Source: Terriglobales bacterium
GTDB lineage: Bacteria; Acidobacteriota; Terriglobia; Terriglobales; Acidobacteriaceae
Direction of reading: 5' to 3'
Assembly: GCA_035487355.1 (NCBI GenBank)
Contig: DATHMF010000068.1
Location: 1 to 64,000 of the forward strand
Length of the DNA stretch: 64,000 nt
Part shown: piece after piece, positions 48,020 to 54,403 of the stretch
How positions within the stretch are numbered: position 1 is the stretch's first letter
Layout: each line of letters starts with the position of its first letter
Position numbers and translations under genes: made by a program
Notes under the pieces: model-generated
What the model was told of the DNA's origin: nothing
The model's input: the letters and a program-made list of their open reading frames with translations, nothing else
Databases searched by the model: none

Positions 48020-49309
48020 CTATTCGCTTGCTATACGCAACAAAAGCACGGGCTGCAGCAGAAAATCGAGCTTGTTAATTTCTTTGACGACTTTGCGTAT
48101 TTCCGGCTCCGGAGTCGGTTCCACAGTTATGACAAACGAAAGGTCCTCTTTCGACATATTCGGCTGTTGCAGGACCGCATCAATATTCATTCCCGCTTTG
48201 GAGATAATTTGCGCCACGTGCGCCAGAATTCCGGGGCGGTCTTTCACGGTCAATCGCAGATACCAACTTGCCGGATTAAAAGTTTTGGCCAGAGGAAGCG
48301 GCTTCATCTCCTGGAAGCCGTGCAGTTCCCTGCCACGCAATACTCCGTTGGCCATGCTGCGGCTGATTTCCACCAAATCGGATATGACGGCGGTGCTGGT
48401 GGCGCGCGGGCCGGCGCCGGGGCCGTAGAACATCTGGCGTCCGATGCGTTCGCCCACAAGAAAGACCGCATTGTTCACGCCTTCGGCCTTGGCCATCATG
48501 CTGCGGCGGTGCACAAGCCAGGGACGCACTGAAACTTCCAGTCCATGCTGGTTGAGCTCAGCGTAAGCGATGAGACGGATAGTGCTTTTGAGCATGCGGG
48601 CGTAACAAAAATCTATGGCGGCGACGCTGCGGATTCCGTCCGTGGGAATCTTGTCCTCGGGGAGCCAGCCGTGAAAGGCAAGGCGTGCGAGGATGCAGAG
48701 CTTGTCGCGGGTATCAATACCATCAACGTCAGAAGAGGGATCAGGCTCGGCGTAGCCGGCCTCCTGCGCCTGACGAAGAGCTTCATCAAAGCTGAGGCCG
48801 TTGCGCTCCATCTGGGTGAGGATGTAATTCGTGGTGCCGTTCAGGATGCCGTAGACCGCTTGCAGGCGGTCTCCAGTCATGCCATCGGTGATGGCGCGGA
48901 CAACAGGCACGCCTCCCGCAACCGCGGCCTCAATACCAATCGGAATATTTTTTTGCGCGGCGAGCGCATGGATTTCGTGTCCATGTTTGGCCAACAGGTT
49001 CTTGTTCGCAGTCACGACCGGCTTGCCGCTTTCCAACGCGCCCAAGACAACCTCACGCGCAGCAACGGTGCCTCCCATGGTCTCGACAACAAGATCAACG
49101 TTCGGGTCACGGACGATTTGCTTCCAGTCTTTAACGTAACGCACGCCTGGTGGTAATTGCTTGGCGGGAACAGGAGAGCGGCGGCAAACGGCAACCACCT
49201 GCAATGCCACTCCGGCACGCTGCTTGATCTGTTCGGCGTTAGCTTGAAGGCTCGCGGCAGTTGCCTGGCCTACGTTGCCATAGCCGACGATGGCGATGCG
49301 GATGTTCAT
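48020..49309 (-). CDS. hom: Homoserine dehydrogenase
   Basis: Cytoplasmic NAD(P)-dependent enzyme, 429 residues, reducing aspartate semialdehyde to homoserine. The N-terminal Rossmann motif is IRIAIVGYGNVGQATAASLQ. The substrate-binding and catalytic domain has YGILNGTTNYILTQMER, DPSSDVDGIDTRDKLCILARLAF and KAEGVNNAVFLVGE-like segments. The C-terminal ~80 residues are an ACT domain (LRLTVKDRPGILAHVAQIIS), which in known enzymes allows threonine feedback. The start overlaps the thrB stop by four bases (ATGA), so the two are translationally coupled. Confidence 0.97.
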   Translation of the reverse strand: MNIRIAIVGYGNVGQATAASLQANAEQIKQRAGVALQVVAVCRRSPVPAKQLPPGVRYVKDWKQIVRDPNVDLVVETMGGTVAAREVVLGALESGKPVVTANKNLLAKHGHEIHALAAQKNIPIGIEAAVAGGVPVVRAITDGMTGDRLQAVYGILNGTTNYILTQMERNGLSFDEALRQAQEAGYAEPDPSSDVDGIDTRDKLCILARLAFHGWLPEDKIPTDGIRSVAAIDFCYARMLKSTIRLIAYAELNQHGLEVSVRPWLVHRRSMMAKAEGVNNAVFLVGERIGRQMFYGPGAGPRATSTAVISDLVEISRSMANGVLRGRELHGFQEMKPLPLAKTFNPASWYLRLTVKDRPGILAHVAQIISKAGMNIDAVLQQPNMSKEDLSFVITVEPTPEPEIRKVVKEINKLDFLLQPVLLLRIASE

Positions 49310-50349
49310 CGTTTCACCCCTTGCACACGGCTATTGGAGCGATTCAGGTTCATGGTCTCTCCGGCGCCGCGTCTTTCAATCTCAGTCGGAATCAGTTCGG
49401 CATCGTGACCGTGACTTTTGAGATGATTGGCGACAAATTGCACCGTCTGTCGCACCGGAACTCTTGGATCCAGGATCAACAGCACCGATGGACCGGCGCC
49501 GCTGAGCGCGACTCCGAGAATGCCCTTCTTCCCCGAGAGCTCGCGCAGCTCAGGCAACAGAGGACACAAAGCGGCCCGATAGGGTTGATGGAGTTCGTCT
49601 TGCACAGCGTAGGTCAGCAGTTCGTCACGGCCTTGCGCGAAGGCGGCCGCAAGCAGCATCGCCGATTGAATGTTGGCCACCGCTTGAAAACGGGAAAAAC
49701 CTGCCGGGAGCACGCGACGAGACTCTTCGGTAGAGAGAGCTTGACGCGGTACCACCAGCAGAAGCGGCCATGCTTTTTTGATATTGACCTTGCAGGCGTA
49801 GAGGCCGAGATCACGAACCGCAACCATAGGCGGGCCGCCGTTTTGAGTATGGCTGGGCGGCATTTTCTGCCATTGCGAGACAGCAAAGCCGCCGAGCCAG
49901 CAGGCGGCGACGTTATCGGCGTGCCCTTCGCGCCTGGCGGCTTCTTCCATAAGGCGCTTGGCGGACCAACCGAGATCGCCAAAATGTATGGCGAGAGCGA
50001 TACCTGCAAGACGCGCTGCCGCCGATGAGCCAGTTCCCTTGCCGATGGGCATCTGGTTGTTCACGGTAACGGCGAGTGGAAACGGAGTCTTACCCTCGGA
50101 GGAAAGAATGTCTTTATAAGTCTCCAGAATCAGATTGCGTTCGAGTCTTCCGCAAATTTCCCGGTCGCGTCCTGAAGCGACGATGGAAAATTCCGGCGCG
50201 ACCGCGGCCTGAATCTTAAGGTGGAGCTTCAAGGCCAGAGCGGCAGAATCAAAGGCCGGCCCTAAATTGGCGGAAGTAGCGGGCAGCACCAGCTTCAGCG
50301 GAGCGGGATGTTTCTTCATACCTGAGGTTTTCATGCTTGCGGTCTTCAT
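49306..50349 (-). CDS. thrB: Homoserine kinase (GHMP family)
   Basis: Cytoplasmic GHMP kinase, 347 residues, phosphorylating homoserine for threonine synthase. The N-terminal ~17 residues are a low-complexity Met/Lys/Ser lead (MKTASMKTSGMKK), so a later start is possible. The four-base overlap with the thrC stop supports 50349. Motifs: LVLPATSANLGPAFDSAALAL (N-terminal GHMP signature), MPIGKGTGSSAAARLAG (ATP-binding motif) and GILGVALSGAGPSVLLIL (C-terminal motif). It overlaps thrC and hom by four bases each, in a tightly coupled block of three threonine genes. All three should respond together to the leader at 53560-53724. Confidence 0.96.
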   Translation of the reverse strand: MKTASMKTSGMKKHPAPLKLVLPATSANLGPAFDSAALALKLHLKIQAAVAPEFSIVASGRDREICGRLERNLILETYKDILSSEGKTPFPLAVTVNNQMPIGKGTGSSAAARLAGIALAIHFGDLGWSAKRLMEEAARREGHADNVAACWLGGFAVSQWQKMPPSHTQNGGPPMVAVRDLGLYACKVNIKKAWPLLLVVPRQALSTEESRRVLPAGFSRFQAVANIQSAMLLAAAFAQGRDELLTYAVQDELHQPYRAALCPLLPELRELSGKKGILGVALSGAGPSVLLILDPRVPVRQTVQFVANHLKSHGHDAELIPTEIERRGAGETMNLNRSNSRVQGVKR

Positions 50350-51704
50350 ACCAGGGCTCCGGTCCGTTCGTTGGTGAAGCGTTCCAGAACTTCGATTACC
50401 GATTTGGGATTGGCGTCTGCTTTAATTGGAGGATTGCAAAACGACTTCATGGCTTCGGAGGCCTCAGGCAGCAACTGGCCGCTGTGAAAGCGGATGACAT
50501 AATCGGCATCTTTGAGAACGTGCCCAGTAAGCATCATGACCACGGTTTCGCTGGGCTTGATGAAACCCTGCTTGCACAGGTTATACAAACCCGCCAGGGT
50601 CACAGCCGACGCCGGTTCGCAGCCAATGCCCTCGGCGCCGAGCTGCGCCTTGGCAGCGGCGATTTCCTGCTCGCTGACATATTCGCAGGCTCCGCCGGTT
50701 GAGCGCAGCACATTTACGGCTTTTCTCCATGAAACCGGACTGCCGATTCGAATGGCAGTCGCCAGGGTTTCAGCCTTGACGGAGACCAGGGATTCACCGT
50801 TGGTCTCTCGCATGGTGCGAACCAAAGCGCGCGAACCCTCGGCCTGAATCACGGAAACTTTGGGAAGGCTGGAGATGAATCCAAGCTCGTGCAGTTCCAG
50901 AAGGGCCTTCCCGATTGCGGAAGAGTTACCCAGATTGCCGCCAGGAACAATCACGTGGTCAGGCACTGCCCAGCCTAGCTGTTCGAGCATTTCGATGGCC
51001 GCAGTTTTTTGTCCTTCAAGACGGTAAGGGTTGGCAGAGTTCACCAGATAAATAGAAGCCTGCTGCACGACTTCTCCCAAGATGCTCAGGCAGCCGTCAA
51101 AATCGGTGGGCAACTGGCAGACGACGGCGCCGTATTCGAGCGTCTGTGAGAGCTTGCCGACGGAAATCTTGTCTTGGGGGACAAGCACCAGGCATTTCAA
51201 TCCAGCCCGGGCAGCGTAGGCCGCCATTGAGGAAGAAGTGTTGCCGGTAGAAGCGCAAGCCACCCACTTGACGCCCAGCTCGCGCGCCTTCGAGATCACG
51301 GTCGTCATCCCTGTATCTTTGAAGGAGCCGGTAGGATTCATGCCCAGATGCTTCACGTAGAGCTGCTCAACTCCGCTCTGACGAGCGCTCTGCTGAAGAC
51401 GATAGAGTGGCGTGTTTCCTTCGGCCAGAGTTACAGCGTTGCGAAGATCGGAGAGGATGGGCAGCAGTTCGCGAAAACGCCACACGCCACTTTGGTCGAG
51501 CGGATCGAGCGTGCCACGGCGCTGCTGCCAAAGGTTCTTAAGCGCAACCGGATTGGGCTGCTTGCTGCCGCGTTTCTGCCATGCCGGATAGACCGCTTCC
51601 AGCAGTTCGCGGCACTTGGTGCAGCGGAAATCCGCGGTGGGAGAGGATTCGAGAGATCCACATCCCATGCAGCGCAGAAGGGCGATATCCGTTTTCTTGG
51701 CCAT
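50346..51704 (-). CDS. thrC: Threonine synthase
   Basis: Cytoplasmic PLP enzyme, 452 residues, converting O-phosphohomoserine to threonine. An N-terminal zinc-ribbon-like element has paired Cys (LLRCMGCGS ... FRCTKCREL), frequent in this branch of threonine synthases. The PLP Lys is in MNPTGSFKDTGMTTVIS. The phosphate-binding loop is CASTGNTSSSMAAYAARAG-like, and the conserved GGNLGNSSAIGKAL and SANPYRLEGQKTAA segments follow. The C-terminus carries GIGCEPASAVTLAGL. It follows lysC after 250 bases that are packed with palindromes. The four-base overlap with thrB marks the start of a coupled thrC-thrB-hom run. Confidence 0.97.
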   Translation of the reverse strand: MAKKTDIALLRCMGCGSLESSPTADFRCTKCRELLEAVYPAWQKRGSKQPNPVALKNLWQQRRGTLDPLDQSGVWRFRELLPILSDLRNAVTLAEGNTPLYRLQQSARQSGVEQLYVKHLGMNPTGSFKDTGMTTVISKARELGVKWVACASTGNTSSSMAAYAARAGLKCLVLVPQDKISVGKLSQTLEYGAVVCQLPTDFDGCLSILGEVVQQASIYLVNSANPYRLEGQKTAAIEMLEQLGWAVPDHVIVPGGNLGNSSAIGKALLELHELGFISSLPKVSVIQAEGSRALVRTMRETNGESLVSVKAETLATAIRIGSPVSWRKAVNVLRSTGGACEYVSEQEIAAAKAQLGAEGIGCEPASAVTLAGLYNLCKQGFIKPSETVVMMLTGHVLKDADYVIRFHSGQLLPEASEAMKSFCNPPIKADANPKSVIEVLERFTNERTGALV

Positions 51705-51954: not shown

Positions 51955-53358
51955 CTAATGAAAAAATTCCTGGTGAATCGCCTGAATCACATCGGGCGCG
52001 CTGGCGGCAGCAACCGCAAAGCAAATACTCAATTCGCTGGCGCCCTGGGCAACCGCGGTCACACTCACCTTGCGTGCTCCTACAGCGCTAAAGATTCTGC
52101 CGATGACGCCGTAGCTGCCCTTCATAGCCTCACCCAGCACGGTAATGACTGCCAGATCGCGTTCGACATCCACGGACTTAAGCACGCCGTGCCGCAGTTC
52201 GGTGCGAAACATTCTTTCAATGGAGGCGGTCACCCGGTCGGTATCTTCTCCGCGCACCACCAACCCCAATGAGTTCTCTGCCGAAGACTGAGTGGAAAAC
52301 AGAATATCAACATGGTCGTGGCCGAGGCGGAGAAACATCCTGCCTAAAATATCGGCGGCGACATAGATATCATTTTGGGCCACCAGGGTCACCAGGCTCG
52401 CCTTGGTAACTGAAGTCACAGCTTTGACGGGAATGCCGTTGATGCTGGGAGCGCCGGTAACCTTGGTCCCCGCAATCTCGGGGCGAAAGGAATTCTTGAT
52501 CCACACAGGAATCTTTTTATCCATCGTAGGACGAATGGCTTTGTGATGAATGACCTTGGCGCCATAGTAGGAAAGTTCGATGGCTTCGGTAAAACTAATC
52601 TCAGGGAGGACACGAGCATCAGGACAGATGCGTGGATCGGCGCTGAGCACGCCATCCACGTCGGTCCAAATCCAAACTTCATCGCTGTCGAGAACAGCGC
52701 CGAGGATGGTGGCCGAAGAATCCGATCCGCCACGGCCCAGCGTGGTGGGCTGGCCCTGCTTGGTCGCGCCGCTGAAGCCGGTGACGACAGGAACACGTCC
52801 TTGTTCCAATAAGGGAAAAATTAAAGCGTGGGCCTTGGGGCGAGTTGCGTCGAGATCTGCCGAGGCGTCACCGAAGTGATCGTCCGTAACTAAAATTTCT
52901 GTGGAATCAACGTAGCGGCTGGGAGTACCGGATTGCTCGAGAATGGCGGCAAATATCTGGGCAGATAGCTTCTCGCCCATAGGAAGAGCGACGTCCAGTA
53001 GCTGCGCCGTCAGGGAGCGGAGCTGCACCAAGGCAAAGCACAGATCATGCAGTTGCCGAATGATGGCCCCAACTTGCTCCCGCACCTTCGGAGCATTGGT
53101 TGGATTGAAAAGTGAGGCAATAACTTCTTCGTGGCGGGCTTCAATCTCCTGCAGGGCGCTGGAAACCGTGCTCTGCTCTCCCCTGCCAGCGGCCTTGACG
53201 CAGTTCAGGATGCGGTCCGTAATACCCGCGAGAGCTGAGACAACAACCACAATACGATCTCTGGCAGCGGCTTCCTGTACGATGTGGGCGGAACTCAGGA
53301 TCCGCGCTGCGTTCCCCACTGAAGTACCGCCAAATTTCATTACTAACGTCTTCTTCAT
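51955..53358 (-). CDS. lysC: Aspartate kinase (monofunctional)
   Basis: Cytoplasmic kinase, 467 residues, phosphorylating aspartate as the first step of the Thr/Met/Lys pathway. The ATG is preceded by GGAG (CGGAGTGTT). N-terminal motif: VMKFGGTSVGNAARILSSAH. ATP- and substrate-binding segments: VVTGFSGATKQGQPTTLGRGGSDSSATI, and a bridging WTDVDGVLSADPRICPDA. Two ACT domains follow (LVTLVAQNDIYVAADILGR and LAVITVLGEAMKGSYGVIGRIF), the usual site of Lys/Thr feedback. No homoserine-dehydrogenase fusion is present. It is the first structural gene downstream of the threonine leader and terminator at 53560-53724, about 200 bases away. I use lysC loosely, since Thr or Lys sensitivity cannot be told. 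Confidence 0.97.
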   Translation of the reverse strand: MKKTLVMKFGGTSVGNAARILSSAHIVQEAAARDRIVVVVSALAGITDRILNCVKAAGRGEQSTVSSALQEIEARHEEVIASLFNPTNAPKVREQVGAIIRQLHDLCFALVQLRSLTAQLLDVALPMGEKLSAQIFAAILEQSGTPSRYVDSTEILVTDDHFGDASADLDATRPKAHALIFPLLEQGRVPVVTGFSGATKQGQPTTLGRGGSDSSATILGAVLDSDEVWIWTDVDGVLSADPRICPDARVLPEISFTEAIELSYYGAKVIHHKAIRPTMDKKIPVWIKNSFRPEIAGTKVTGAPSINGIPVKAVTSVTKASLVTLVAQNDIYVAADILGRMFLRLGHDHVDILFSTQSSAENSLGLVVRGEDTDRVTASIERMFRTELRHGVLKSVDVERDLAVITVLGEAMKGSYGVIGRIFSAVGARKVSVTAVAQGASELSICFAVAAASAPDVIQAIHQEFFH

Positions 53359-53425
53359 AACACTCCGTTGATCATTATCCTTGTAGGTACAGGAACTCTT
53401 GAGGTTGCGGAAAAAGCCGGCTTCT

Positions 53426-53455
53426 TGTCATTCCGACACGCAGTGGAGGAATCCC
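53426..53455. repeat. Intergenic repeat word of the TGTCATTCCGA...GAGGAATC type
   Basis: TGTCATTCCGACACG ... GTGGAGGAATCCC between lysC and the attenuator. Similar intergenic sequences (TGTCATTCCGAG...GAGGAATC) are widely dispersed in genomes of Acidobacteriota and some other phyla in my experience. It lies in the transcribed leader between terminator and lysC. No function is assigned. Confidence 0.4.
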
Positions 53456-53559
53456 TATAGTGCCGAAATTCTTATGTTCTGTTCTCATGACCCTTAAGGC
53501 TGCCTTTGTCCAATCTCAAACTGATCTAATCTTCCCTGCACCTTTTTCACGACAAAATT

Positions 53560-53597
53560 AAAAGCCCACCGTCAGTTGCTTCTGGCGGTGGGCTTTT
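53560..53597 (-). terminator. Attenuator terminator (segments 3 and 4)
   Basis: On the minus strand the stem AAAAGCCCACCG (53597-53586) pairs perfectly with CGGTGGGCTTTT (53571-53560). An inner CAG/CTG pair continues after one mismatch, and the tract TTTTAATTTT follows. It starts 23 bases after the stop of the Thr-rich leader frame and lies about 200 bases before lysC. The 5' side of this stem overlaps segment 3 of the alternative pairing. Confidence 0.88.
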
Positions 53598-53619
53598 TTG
53601 GAATCTTTTAGATTATTGC

Positions 53620-53682
53620 TTATTTACCCTTTCGCCAGAAGCACATGGATGTGCCTGTACCTGTGGATGTTGTTGTTGTCAT
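53620..53682 (-). CDS. thrL: Threonine-rich leader peptide
   Basis: A 20-codon frame from ATG (53682) to TAA (53620) encoding MTTTTSTGTGTSMCFWRKGK. Residues 2, 3, 4, 5, 7, 9 and 11 are Thr, and every Thr codon is ACA. Segment 2 of the attenuator (53643-53633) spans the codons for Cys-Phe-Trp-Arg near the end. The frame begins about 40 bases after the predicted transcription start and ends 23 bases before the terminator stem. The Shine-Dalgarno signal is weak (AAGCGG directly upstream). It resembles E. coli ThrL in composition, not in sequence. Its role is to report Thr-tRNA charging, and the peptide itself is probably without function. Confidence 0.82.
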   Translation of the reverse strand: MTTTTSTGTGTSMCFWRKGK

Positions 53683-53730
53683 CCGCTTCGAGGTAACCGG
53701 CTTCTGGCTCACGGAAAGCATGAAAGAAAT

Positions 53731-53759
53731 ACTGTATTAGGAAACTAGTTTCGTGTCAA
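53731..53759 (-). promoter_or_regulatory. Sigma-70-type promoter of the threonine operon
   Basis: On the minus strand a perfect TTGACA (53759-53754) is followed after 17 bases by TACAGT (53736-53731), which matches four of six -10 positions. It would start transcription near 53724, about 15 bases before attenuator segment 1. An alternative -10 (TAATAC at 53739-53734) is too close to the -35. Confidence 0.65.
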
Positions 53760-54403
53760 CCTCGTAGTTTTGGCCAGGCCGATACGGCAGTGGGCTGAAT
53801 CGGTTGGCTGTGAAAGGCGAAAGAGATAACTGTTGGTCCCATTCTGGTATCAAACTCTTCACTCCTGAGAAAATCCCGCCTATCATTGTCCCTGGAAGTC
53901 TGCCCCGGCGAGCCGGGGTGTATCCAGCATCCCAAGGGATGCGGGGCCAAGGGTTAGCACAAGCCCCATAGGTTCTTTGAAAACTCGCACCAGATGCGGA
54001 CCTGACCGCTGCTCACCCACCAGGTGCCAGCCCGGTCCTTCGCCACACGCCCCTGTTTTACGGATGTAAGTTTACGCATATATGACTATTCGACCCTAGT
54101 GCACAAGCTACTTGACTGGTGTATTGAGGCTACTTAGCCTCTTGCATAACCAATTGAGAACAAAGGCCGAGAGCCTCAAGACGCCTACTGAACAAGGGTG
54201 GGGGGGTAGTCCACCGAGGTTGCAAGAGGCAAGATATAACGGAAGAGTAAATAGCAGATTACTCAAACGCGCCCGGGAGTACCCCAACCTATGTCATGTA
54301 TGATGAGTCTGTTTTTGGCTAAAGGCTAAGAGCTTTCTCACGACCCAAGCCAGCAAGGGTACCCCCCCAGCTTTGGCTGAGTGCTGAATGCTGAGTGCTT
54401 GCT
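53760..54403. other. Noncoding interval upstream of the threonine leader
   Basis: About 640 bases without a credible gene. It holds the second copy of the dispersed repeat (53836-53988), in which CCCCGGC and GCCGGGG arms form a short hairpin near 53902-53920. A 63-codon plus-strand frame (54112-54303) has no family match and no ribosome-binding site and is rejected. A run of seven G occurs near 54201. No tRNA or hairpin with a T-run was seen. Confidence 0.6.
53836..53988. repeat. Dispersed noncoding repeat, copy 2
   Basis: Ordered blocks match 27251-27378: CCCATTCTGGTATCAAA, ACTCCTGAG, TATCATTGTCCCTGGAAGT, TATCCAGCAT, GGGATGCGGGG and GGTTCTTTGAAAACTCG. This copy is about 25 bases longer, with a CCCCGGCGAGCCGGGG hairpin and a CAAGGGTTAGCACAA segment inserted. 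Both copies are on the same strand and in long noncoding regions, one after an immunity gene and one upstream of the thr leader. Confidence 0.6.

Follow-up and report, generated by a model that had tools for sequence, protein, structure and literature searches.

The window analysed here is a 64,000-nucleotide stretch (contig DATHMF010000068.1 of assembly GCA_035487355.1, positions 1 to 64,000) from a Terriglobales bacterium of the Acidobacteriaceae, and carries the threonine biosynthesis operon lysC-thrC-thrB-hom on its minus strand. The four genes encode an aspartate kinase (lysC, 51955–53358; TIGR00657, 370 bits against a cut-off of 209), a threonine synthase (thrC, 50346–51704; TIGR00260, 283 bits, cut-off 167), a homoserine kinase (thrB, 49306–50349; TIGR00191, 209 bits, cut-off 168) and a homoserine dehydrogenase with an ACT domain (hom, 48020–49309; NF004976, 446 bits, cut-off 205). 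Directly 5′ of this operon sits a Thr-rich short open reading frame (ORF) and, with it, a hairpin, both on the same strand as all four genes. The 1 kb upstream of the second aspartate kinase gene of the genome (C86) is without a Thr-dense open frame. Of the named relatives, the closest one found is the MAG 'Acidobacteria bacterium isolate gp1 AA119', whose lysC is 92% identical. In the congener G029 (L032 being the same match with the same identity) lysC is cut at a contig end, leaving no leader for comparison, and every one of its 15 matches in a DNA search belongs to a dispersed repeat and not to the leader. This repeat of about 70 bases occupies 53401–53472, between the hairpin and lysC, and further copies, 75–94% identical, occur in the genome and in the congener.

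Read on the minus strand, positions 53682–53650 consist of ATG and four ACA codons followed by TCC ACA GGT ACA GGC ACA. An earlier note on this DNA had placed ACA at codons 2–5, 7, 9 and 11 of the leader frame without giving a strand, and the minus strand reads exactly so; the seven Thr codons of the dense control core, TTTTSTGTGT (53650–53679), are all ACA. That reading took the leader to be an ORF of 20 codons (53620–53682). An in-frame ATG at 53721, nearly at the predicted 5′ end of the mRNA, is probably the likelier start, as it follows by 9 nt the end of a predicted sigma70-type promoter (TTGACA-17-TACAGT, 53731–53759, minus strand). The probable full leader ORF would then have 33 codons (MLSVSQKPVTSKRMTTTTSTGTGTSMCFWRKGK; 53620–53721, minus strand) and is predicted to be leaderless or nearly so. 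From this start codon 10 is ACC, an additional Thr codon that lies 5′ of and outside the dense stretch, so the note's claim that every Thr codon is ACA holds for the dense stretch and becomes seven of eight for the 33-codon ORF. Isoleucine codons, a feature of the E. coli thr leader, are absent from the window's leader.

Folding of the leader predicts the mutually exclusive pairings of an attenuator (all on the minus strand). Region 1 (GAGCCAGAAGCC; 53699–53710) is predicted from duplex energy to pair as an anti-antiterminator with region 2 (GTGCTTCTGGCGAAAGGGTA, beginning GTGCTTCTGGCG; 53625–53644), which overlaps the 3′ end of the leader ORF. Regions 3 and 4 together make up a predicted intrinsic terminator hairpin running from AAAAGCCCACCGCCAG to CTGACGGTGGGCTTTT (53560–53597; −23.7 kcal/mol, with a T-rich tail), region 3 (CGCCAGAAGC) lying within its 5′ arm and loop. 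The antiterminator duplex 2:3 has an energy of −27.4 kcal/mol and a z of −7.5 against mononucleotide shuffles. The 1:2 duplex (−24.9 kcal/mol, z −2.0) also appears in the MFE fold and does not reach the shuffle threshold of z < −2. As a whole, the 176-nt leader folds more stably than all 200 of its shuffles. The terminator came from folding, a simple pattern scan having listed none at the leader. Rfam gave nothing at gathering threshold in the window; RF00506 (Thr_leader) stayed sub-threshold at 16.2 bits against a gathering score of 55, and neither a T-box nor a riboswitch was among the eight Rfam matches at E ≤ 10 in 53380–53800.

On the strength of this anatomy, read from sequence and folding, the element is very probably a threonine attenuator, of the ribosome-mediated type, that controls lysC-thrC-thrB-hom. 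The leader would be translated while it is transcribed, with stalling as in the known mechanism. When threonyl-tRNA is plentiful, the ribosome would pass the core, run on to the stop codon and cover part of region 2, letting the 3:4 terminator form. When threonyl-tRNA is scarce, it would stall in the core, leaving region 2 free to pair with region 3 and allowing read-through into the operon. With no ribosome on the leader, 1:2 would pair and the terminator would fold.

The choice of ACA in the core is at odds with codon usage elsewhere in the genome. Thr codons were counted in 213 long ORFs of a 425-kb sample that takes in the window (genome size 5.43 Mb), and ACA is the rarest of the four at 811/6,203 (13.1%), against 44% for ACC, 28% for ACG and 15% for ACT. 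The earlier note had asked for a genome-wide count, and in this sample ACA proves not to be common. It had also described the genome as GC-rich, which is moderately true (GC3 0.64), and the flanking genes as free users of ACC and ACG; in the four operon genes ACA makes up 2 of 85 Thr codons. At the sampled frequency, seven ACA in seven would arise with a chance of 0.131^7 = 6.5e-7; none of the 4,930 sets of seven consecutive Thr codons in the sampled genes is all ACA, and the longest ACA-only Thr run in any of them is four. A pattern of three consecutive ACA plus two more close by gave five matches in the genome, two of them (overlapping) at the leader and the other three inside a 1009-aa open frame, overlapping a 311-aa frame and among short frames, respectively. 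A stricter ACA pattern had a single match genome-wide, which is this leader.

To place the leader among its relatives, regions before lysC or hom were hand-chosen among the matches listed, not drawn at random, with the named relatives from the search that found AA119 added, and were scanned for a Thr-dense short ORF plus terminator. With at least four Thr in ten codons and a hairpin, 20 of 144 regions matched on the coding strand versus 4 on the opposite strand, and with at least five Thr the counts were 13 and 0. The same scan at four or more with Ser, Ala or Arg gave no such clear excess (30/46, 33/31 and 43/47, respectively, coding/opposite). Four of the 20 coding-strand regions belong to Chloroflexota and two were judged spurious; five acidobacterial leaders that the scan had missed (L062, L144, L145, L151 and L168) were added, and the final set holds 20 leaders (19 acidobacterial plus the window) from 14 genera. 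Leaders were selected by Thr content, and by a terminator except where the scan had missed the hairpin; the codon was not a criterion. Those dropped were dropped for other reasons: L162 and L164 have no terminator (Thr mostly ACG/ACC), L177, L238 and the second L229 match lie 1.5 to 3.8 kb upstream of hom across multi-gene stretches (mixed ACG/ACC/ACA), and the Chloroflexota leaders L036, L037, L040, L041 and L043 are from another phylum.

The predicted anatomy recurs in this set. Pairing of regions 2 and 3 goes beyond mononucleotide shuffles (z < −2) in 18 of the 20 leaders, and 1:2 pairing does so in just nine, the window not being one of them. A promoter score of at least 9 lies 3–14 bases before the chosen 5′ start in 13/20 leaders, compared to 24 of 2977 ATGs in the scanned regions, a comparison that is not blind, since the starts were in part picked by eye with knowledge of the promoter scan. 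The chosen starts include TTG in L146 and L225, while in L062 no start codon was fixed and counting began from a GTT; the cores are unaffected. With promoters so close to the chosen starts, the leader mRNA is probably leaderless, or nearly so.

Across the 20 leaders the core Thr codons are ACA in 80 of 98 cases, with ACG at 10, ACC at 5 and ACT at 3. Without the window, ACA still accounts for 73/91 (19 leaders), so that in the homologous leaders, the comparison proposed by the earlier note, ACA is dominant and not exclusive, other Thr codons making up 18/98 of the full set. In genes at the loci of ten leader genomes ACA is 119/1041 (about 11%; p 9e-50 versus the cores), and among the Thr codons that these leader ORFs have beyond their cores it is 14/36 (p 4e-6 versus the cores). 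Keeping one leader per genus, that with the lowest ACA share, leaves ACA at 52/68; it leads the core Thr codons in each of the 14 genera, with a share of at least half, although the peptides differ. The non-Thr four-fold codons of the cores are A-ending in 4/31 and C- or G-ending in 25/31. Judged by these counts, the A-ending bias is specific to Thr, as the amino acid sensed, and to the core position. ACA in the cores of this family is thus conserved and largely Thr-specific, at the place where stalling should count. By comparison, the printed tails of Chloroflexota Thr-rich leaders before lysC have ACC at 24/38 and ACA at 4/38. Four of these (L036, L040, L041 and L043) combine Thr codons, mostly ACC, with Met codons and terminators, and may sense both Thr and Met.

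One feature of the cores does not fit such Thr specificity. Isoleucine in them is ATT in 8 of 9 cases, where genes have 36% (p 0.002), although a single tRNA normally reads both ATT and ATC. Because this bias is left unexplained by the choice of one tRNA, a second pressure besides isoacceptor choice likely acts on the core. The sequence CGAATT (mostly CGA ATT AC or CGA ATT AG, in frame) recurs in 12/20 Thr leaders (L081, L140, L144–L147, L149, L151, L192, L204, L211 and L212), is absent from the window and may be part of this second pressure.

The tRNA-Thr genes, a list of which the earlier note had also called for, were taken from 62 tRNA matches to RF00005 in the genome, 60 of which were given an anticodon by ARAGORN. 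The canonical set comprises one gene each for tRNA-Thr(GGU) and tRNA-Thr(UGU) on C105 and for tRNA-Thr(CGU) on C104, so that ACA has one canonical UGU gene plus a copy in an odd array. This array on C6 (C6:181229-182380; L082:6229-7380) packs 13 tRNA genes, several low-scoring, into 1.15 kb, the canonical genes being dispersed by contrast; it contains a second set of all three tRNA-Thr isoacceptors, and may be a mobile-element tRNA array that could add to the tRNA-Thr pool. At 96.55% completeness, the assembly may lack further tRNA genes. A well-formed tRNA with anticodon CUA (ARAGORN: Pyl) lies at L099:11871-11946 (C73) beside a tRNA-Lys(UUU), a possible amber suppressor. Canonical tRNA-Thr(UGU) was found in 18/20 leader genomes, at least 97% identical and in two copies in G011; none was found in the assemblies of G272 and G107.

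Selective charging theory (Elf/Ehrenberg; PMC1183508) holds that the regulatory codon should be that of the isoacceptor whose amount is smallest in relation to the codons it has to read. Judged by gene copies, the codon load is larger on tRNA-Thr(GGU), since ACC and ACT together make up 59%. UGU would be the most sensitive only if the UGU/GGU amount were below about 0.22 (UGU reading ACA only), below 0.69 (also ACG) or below 1.26 (also ACT). If the tRNAs were equally abundant and UGU were restricted to ACA, the arithmetic would favour ACC, as in E. coli. As GGU would be the sensitive isoacceptor at equal amounts, the acidobacterial leaders either reflect a different tRNA balance, with UGU low, or follow another rule.

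What might hold the core Thr codons to ACA? Our best reading, to which we give a probability of about 0.64, is isoacceptor sensing: selection would keep the codons ACA and the switch would respond to how far tRNA-Thr(UGU), the isoacceptor with the anticodon for ACA, is charged, with UGU becoming uncharged earliest or most steeply as Thr runs short. The earlier note had suggested that a single tRNA-Thr decoding ACA is the sensor, and the rarity of ACA, the presence of a UGU gene and the dominance of ACA in relatives speak for it, while the 18/98 other codons and the ACC of the Chloroflexota leaders speak against its strict form. The note's own alternative, that ACA is a slippage run (microsatellite) with no meaning, could appeal to four consecutive ACA codons. 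It is extremely unlikely, because three further ACA are split off by TCC, GGT and GGC and because ACA is also the prevailing core codon in dissimilar leaders across the 14 genera. Alternatively, the attenuator is real and ACA is kept as the least structured Thr codon, ACC being able to pair with a GGTGGG 3′ arm or to fold round the ribosome, or is kept by a general A+T pressure. GGTGGG does lie near the terminator in 12/20 leaders, an in silico swap to all ACC lowers the terminator probability in L062, L141 and L212 (as does all ACG in L179), the Chloroflexota ACC leaders have hairpins without GGTGGG, and the ATT bias of core Ile fits an A+T or structural pressure. However, the window terminator keeps a probability of 0.98 for all four Thr codons, and the mean over leaders moves only from 0.877 with ACA to 0.848 with ACC (0.906 and 0.869 with the ribosome at the stop) in these folds, which are equilibrium and not kinetic models. 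On average the folds are no worse with ACG or ACT than with ACA, yet these two codons are rare (13/98); leaders without GGTGGG use ACA in 36/45 (eight leaders) and those with it in 44/53 (twelve), and the other four-fold core codons end mostly in C or G. Structure alone would therefore be a weak cause of ACA, because the swaps change little and GGTGGG-free leaders use ACA equally; we consider this explanation unlikely.

Quite unlikely, too, is the proposal that ACA acts as a generally slow, rare codon that sets a basal pause and is not sensitive to starvation, which overlaps with isoacceptor sensing save for the role of starvation. ACA is indeed the rarest Thr codon, and GTA, the rarest Val codon, is enriched in the Val codons of nine branched-chain leaders of the family (29/63 versus a 10.8% background, and 19/50 without L274). 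By contrast, the rarest Leu codons, CTA and TTA, are not clearly enriched in the same leaders (4/53 together versus about 6%; CTA alone 3/53), and PMC1183508 regards the rare-codon rule as too simple for E. coli. Ile in the branched-chain leaders is ATT in 15/30 versus 36% (p 0.13). The nine leaders were picked by hand and counted over whole printed tails, not cores. Left out were L290 (a duplicate copy of the same leader), L321 (a Leu leader in which CTG prevails), L296, L310, L338, L348 and L349, and the second matches of L342, L351 and L365. The underlying scans were weak against the opposite strand (Leu 2 versus 1 and branched-chain 0 versus 0 of 60 loci), and further branched-chain scans gave 3 versus 3 matches and 14 versus 5 matches in 50 regions. 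L274 (G102, before ilvB) is a Val leader with GTA at 9/12 from its ATG (10/13 in the printed frame, one GTA lying 5′ of the ATG) and a terminator that resembles those of the Thr leaders, a parallel case to ACA. These counts speak against a general A-ending or rare-codon rule, the preference being strong for Thr, partial for Val and absent for Leu. It is possible, and we put it forward tentatively, that the Thr and partly the Val attenuators of the family are tuned to the isoacceptor with a U34 anticodon (ACA, GTA), which would then have to become uncharged before the others.

Switches of this kind are known, and its phylum, codon and predicted leaderless form make the present one a variant. 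With the thrL attenuator of E. coli and Salmonella (RF00506) it shares a Thr-rich short ORF, an exclusive antiterminator and terminator, and a position upstream of Thr genes. It differs in being probably leaderless, in its operon (lysC-thrC-thrB-hom), in having no RF00506 match at threshold and in using rare ACA where the E. coli thr leader uses eight codons of ACC, a common one (PMC1183508). The same source describes the leu attenuator of Salmonella, in which CUA is, like ACA, a rare synonymous regulatory codon, and where changing CUA to CUG made the response less sensitive; that case concerns leucine and another phylum, and the acidobacterial effect is predicted. In the leaderless trpL of Sinorhizobium meliloti the mRNA 5′ end is at or near the leader AUG (PMC7298713), as predicted for the window, although tryptophan offers no synonymous codon choice. 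A caution comes from the similar-looking ilvB leaders of Streptomyces, which PMC1262725 describes as unresponsive to codon replacement. Our literature search gave no publication or title on acidobacterial Thr attenuators among the matches listed.

According to PMC2965389, almost none of the predicted attenuators in the phylum had an assigned function in 2010, and some would now likely be given one. Codon bias in attenuators is classic evidence for selective tRNA charging, evidence that, in the sources consulted, rests on E. coli and Salmonella. The ACA family offers an independent test, as it predicts that tRNA-Thr(UGU) is scarce for the load it carries and is the first to be emptied. If true, tuning to the U34 isoacceptor would imply that tRNA amounts and codon load are balanced differently across an entire family of bacteria.
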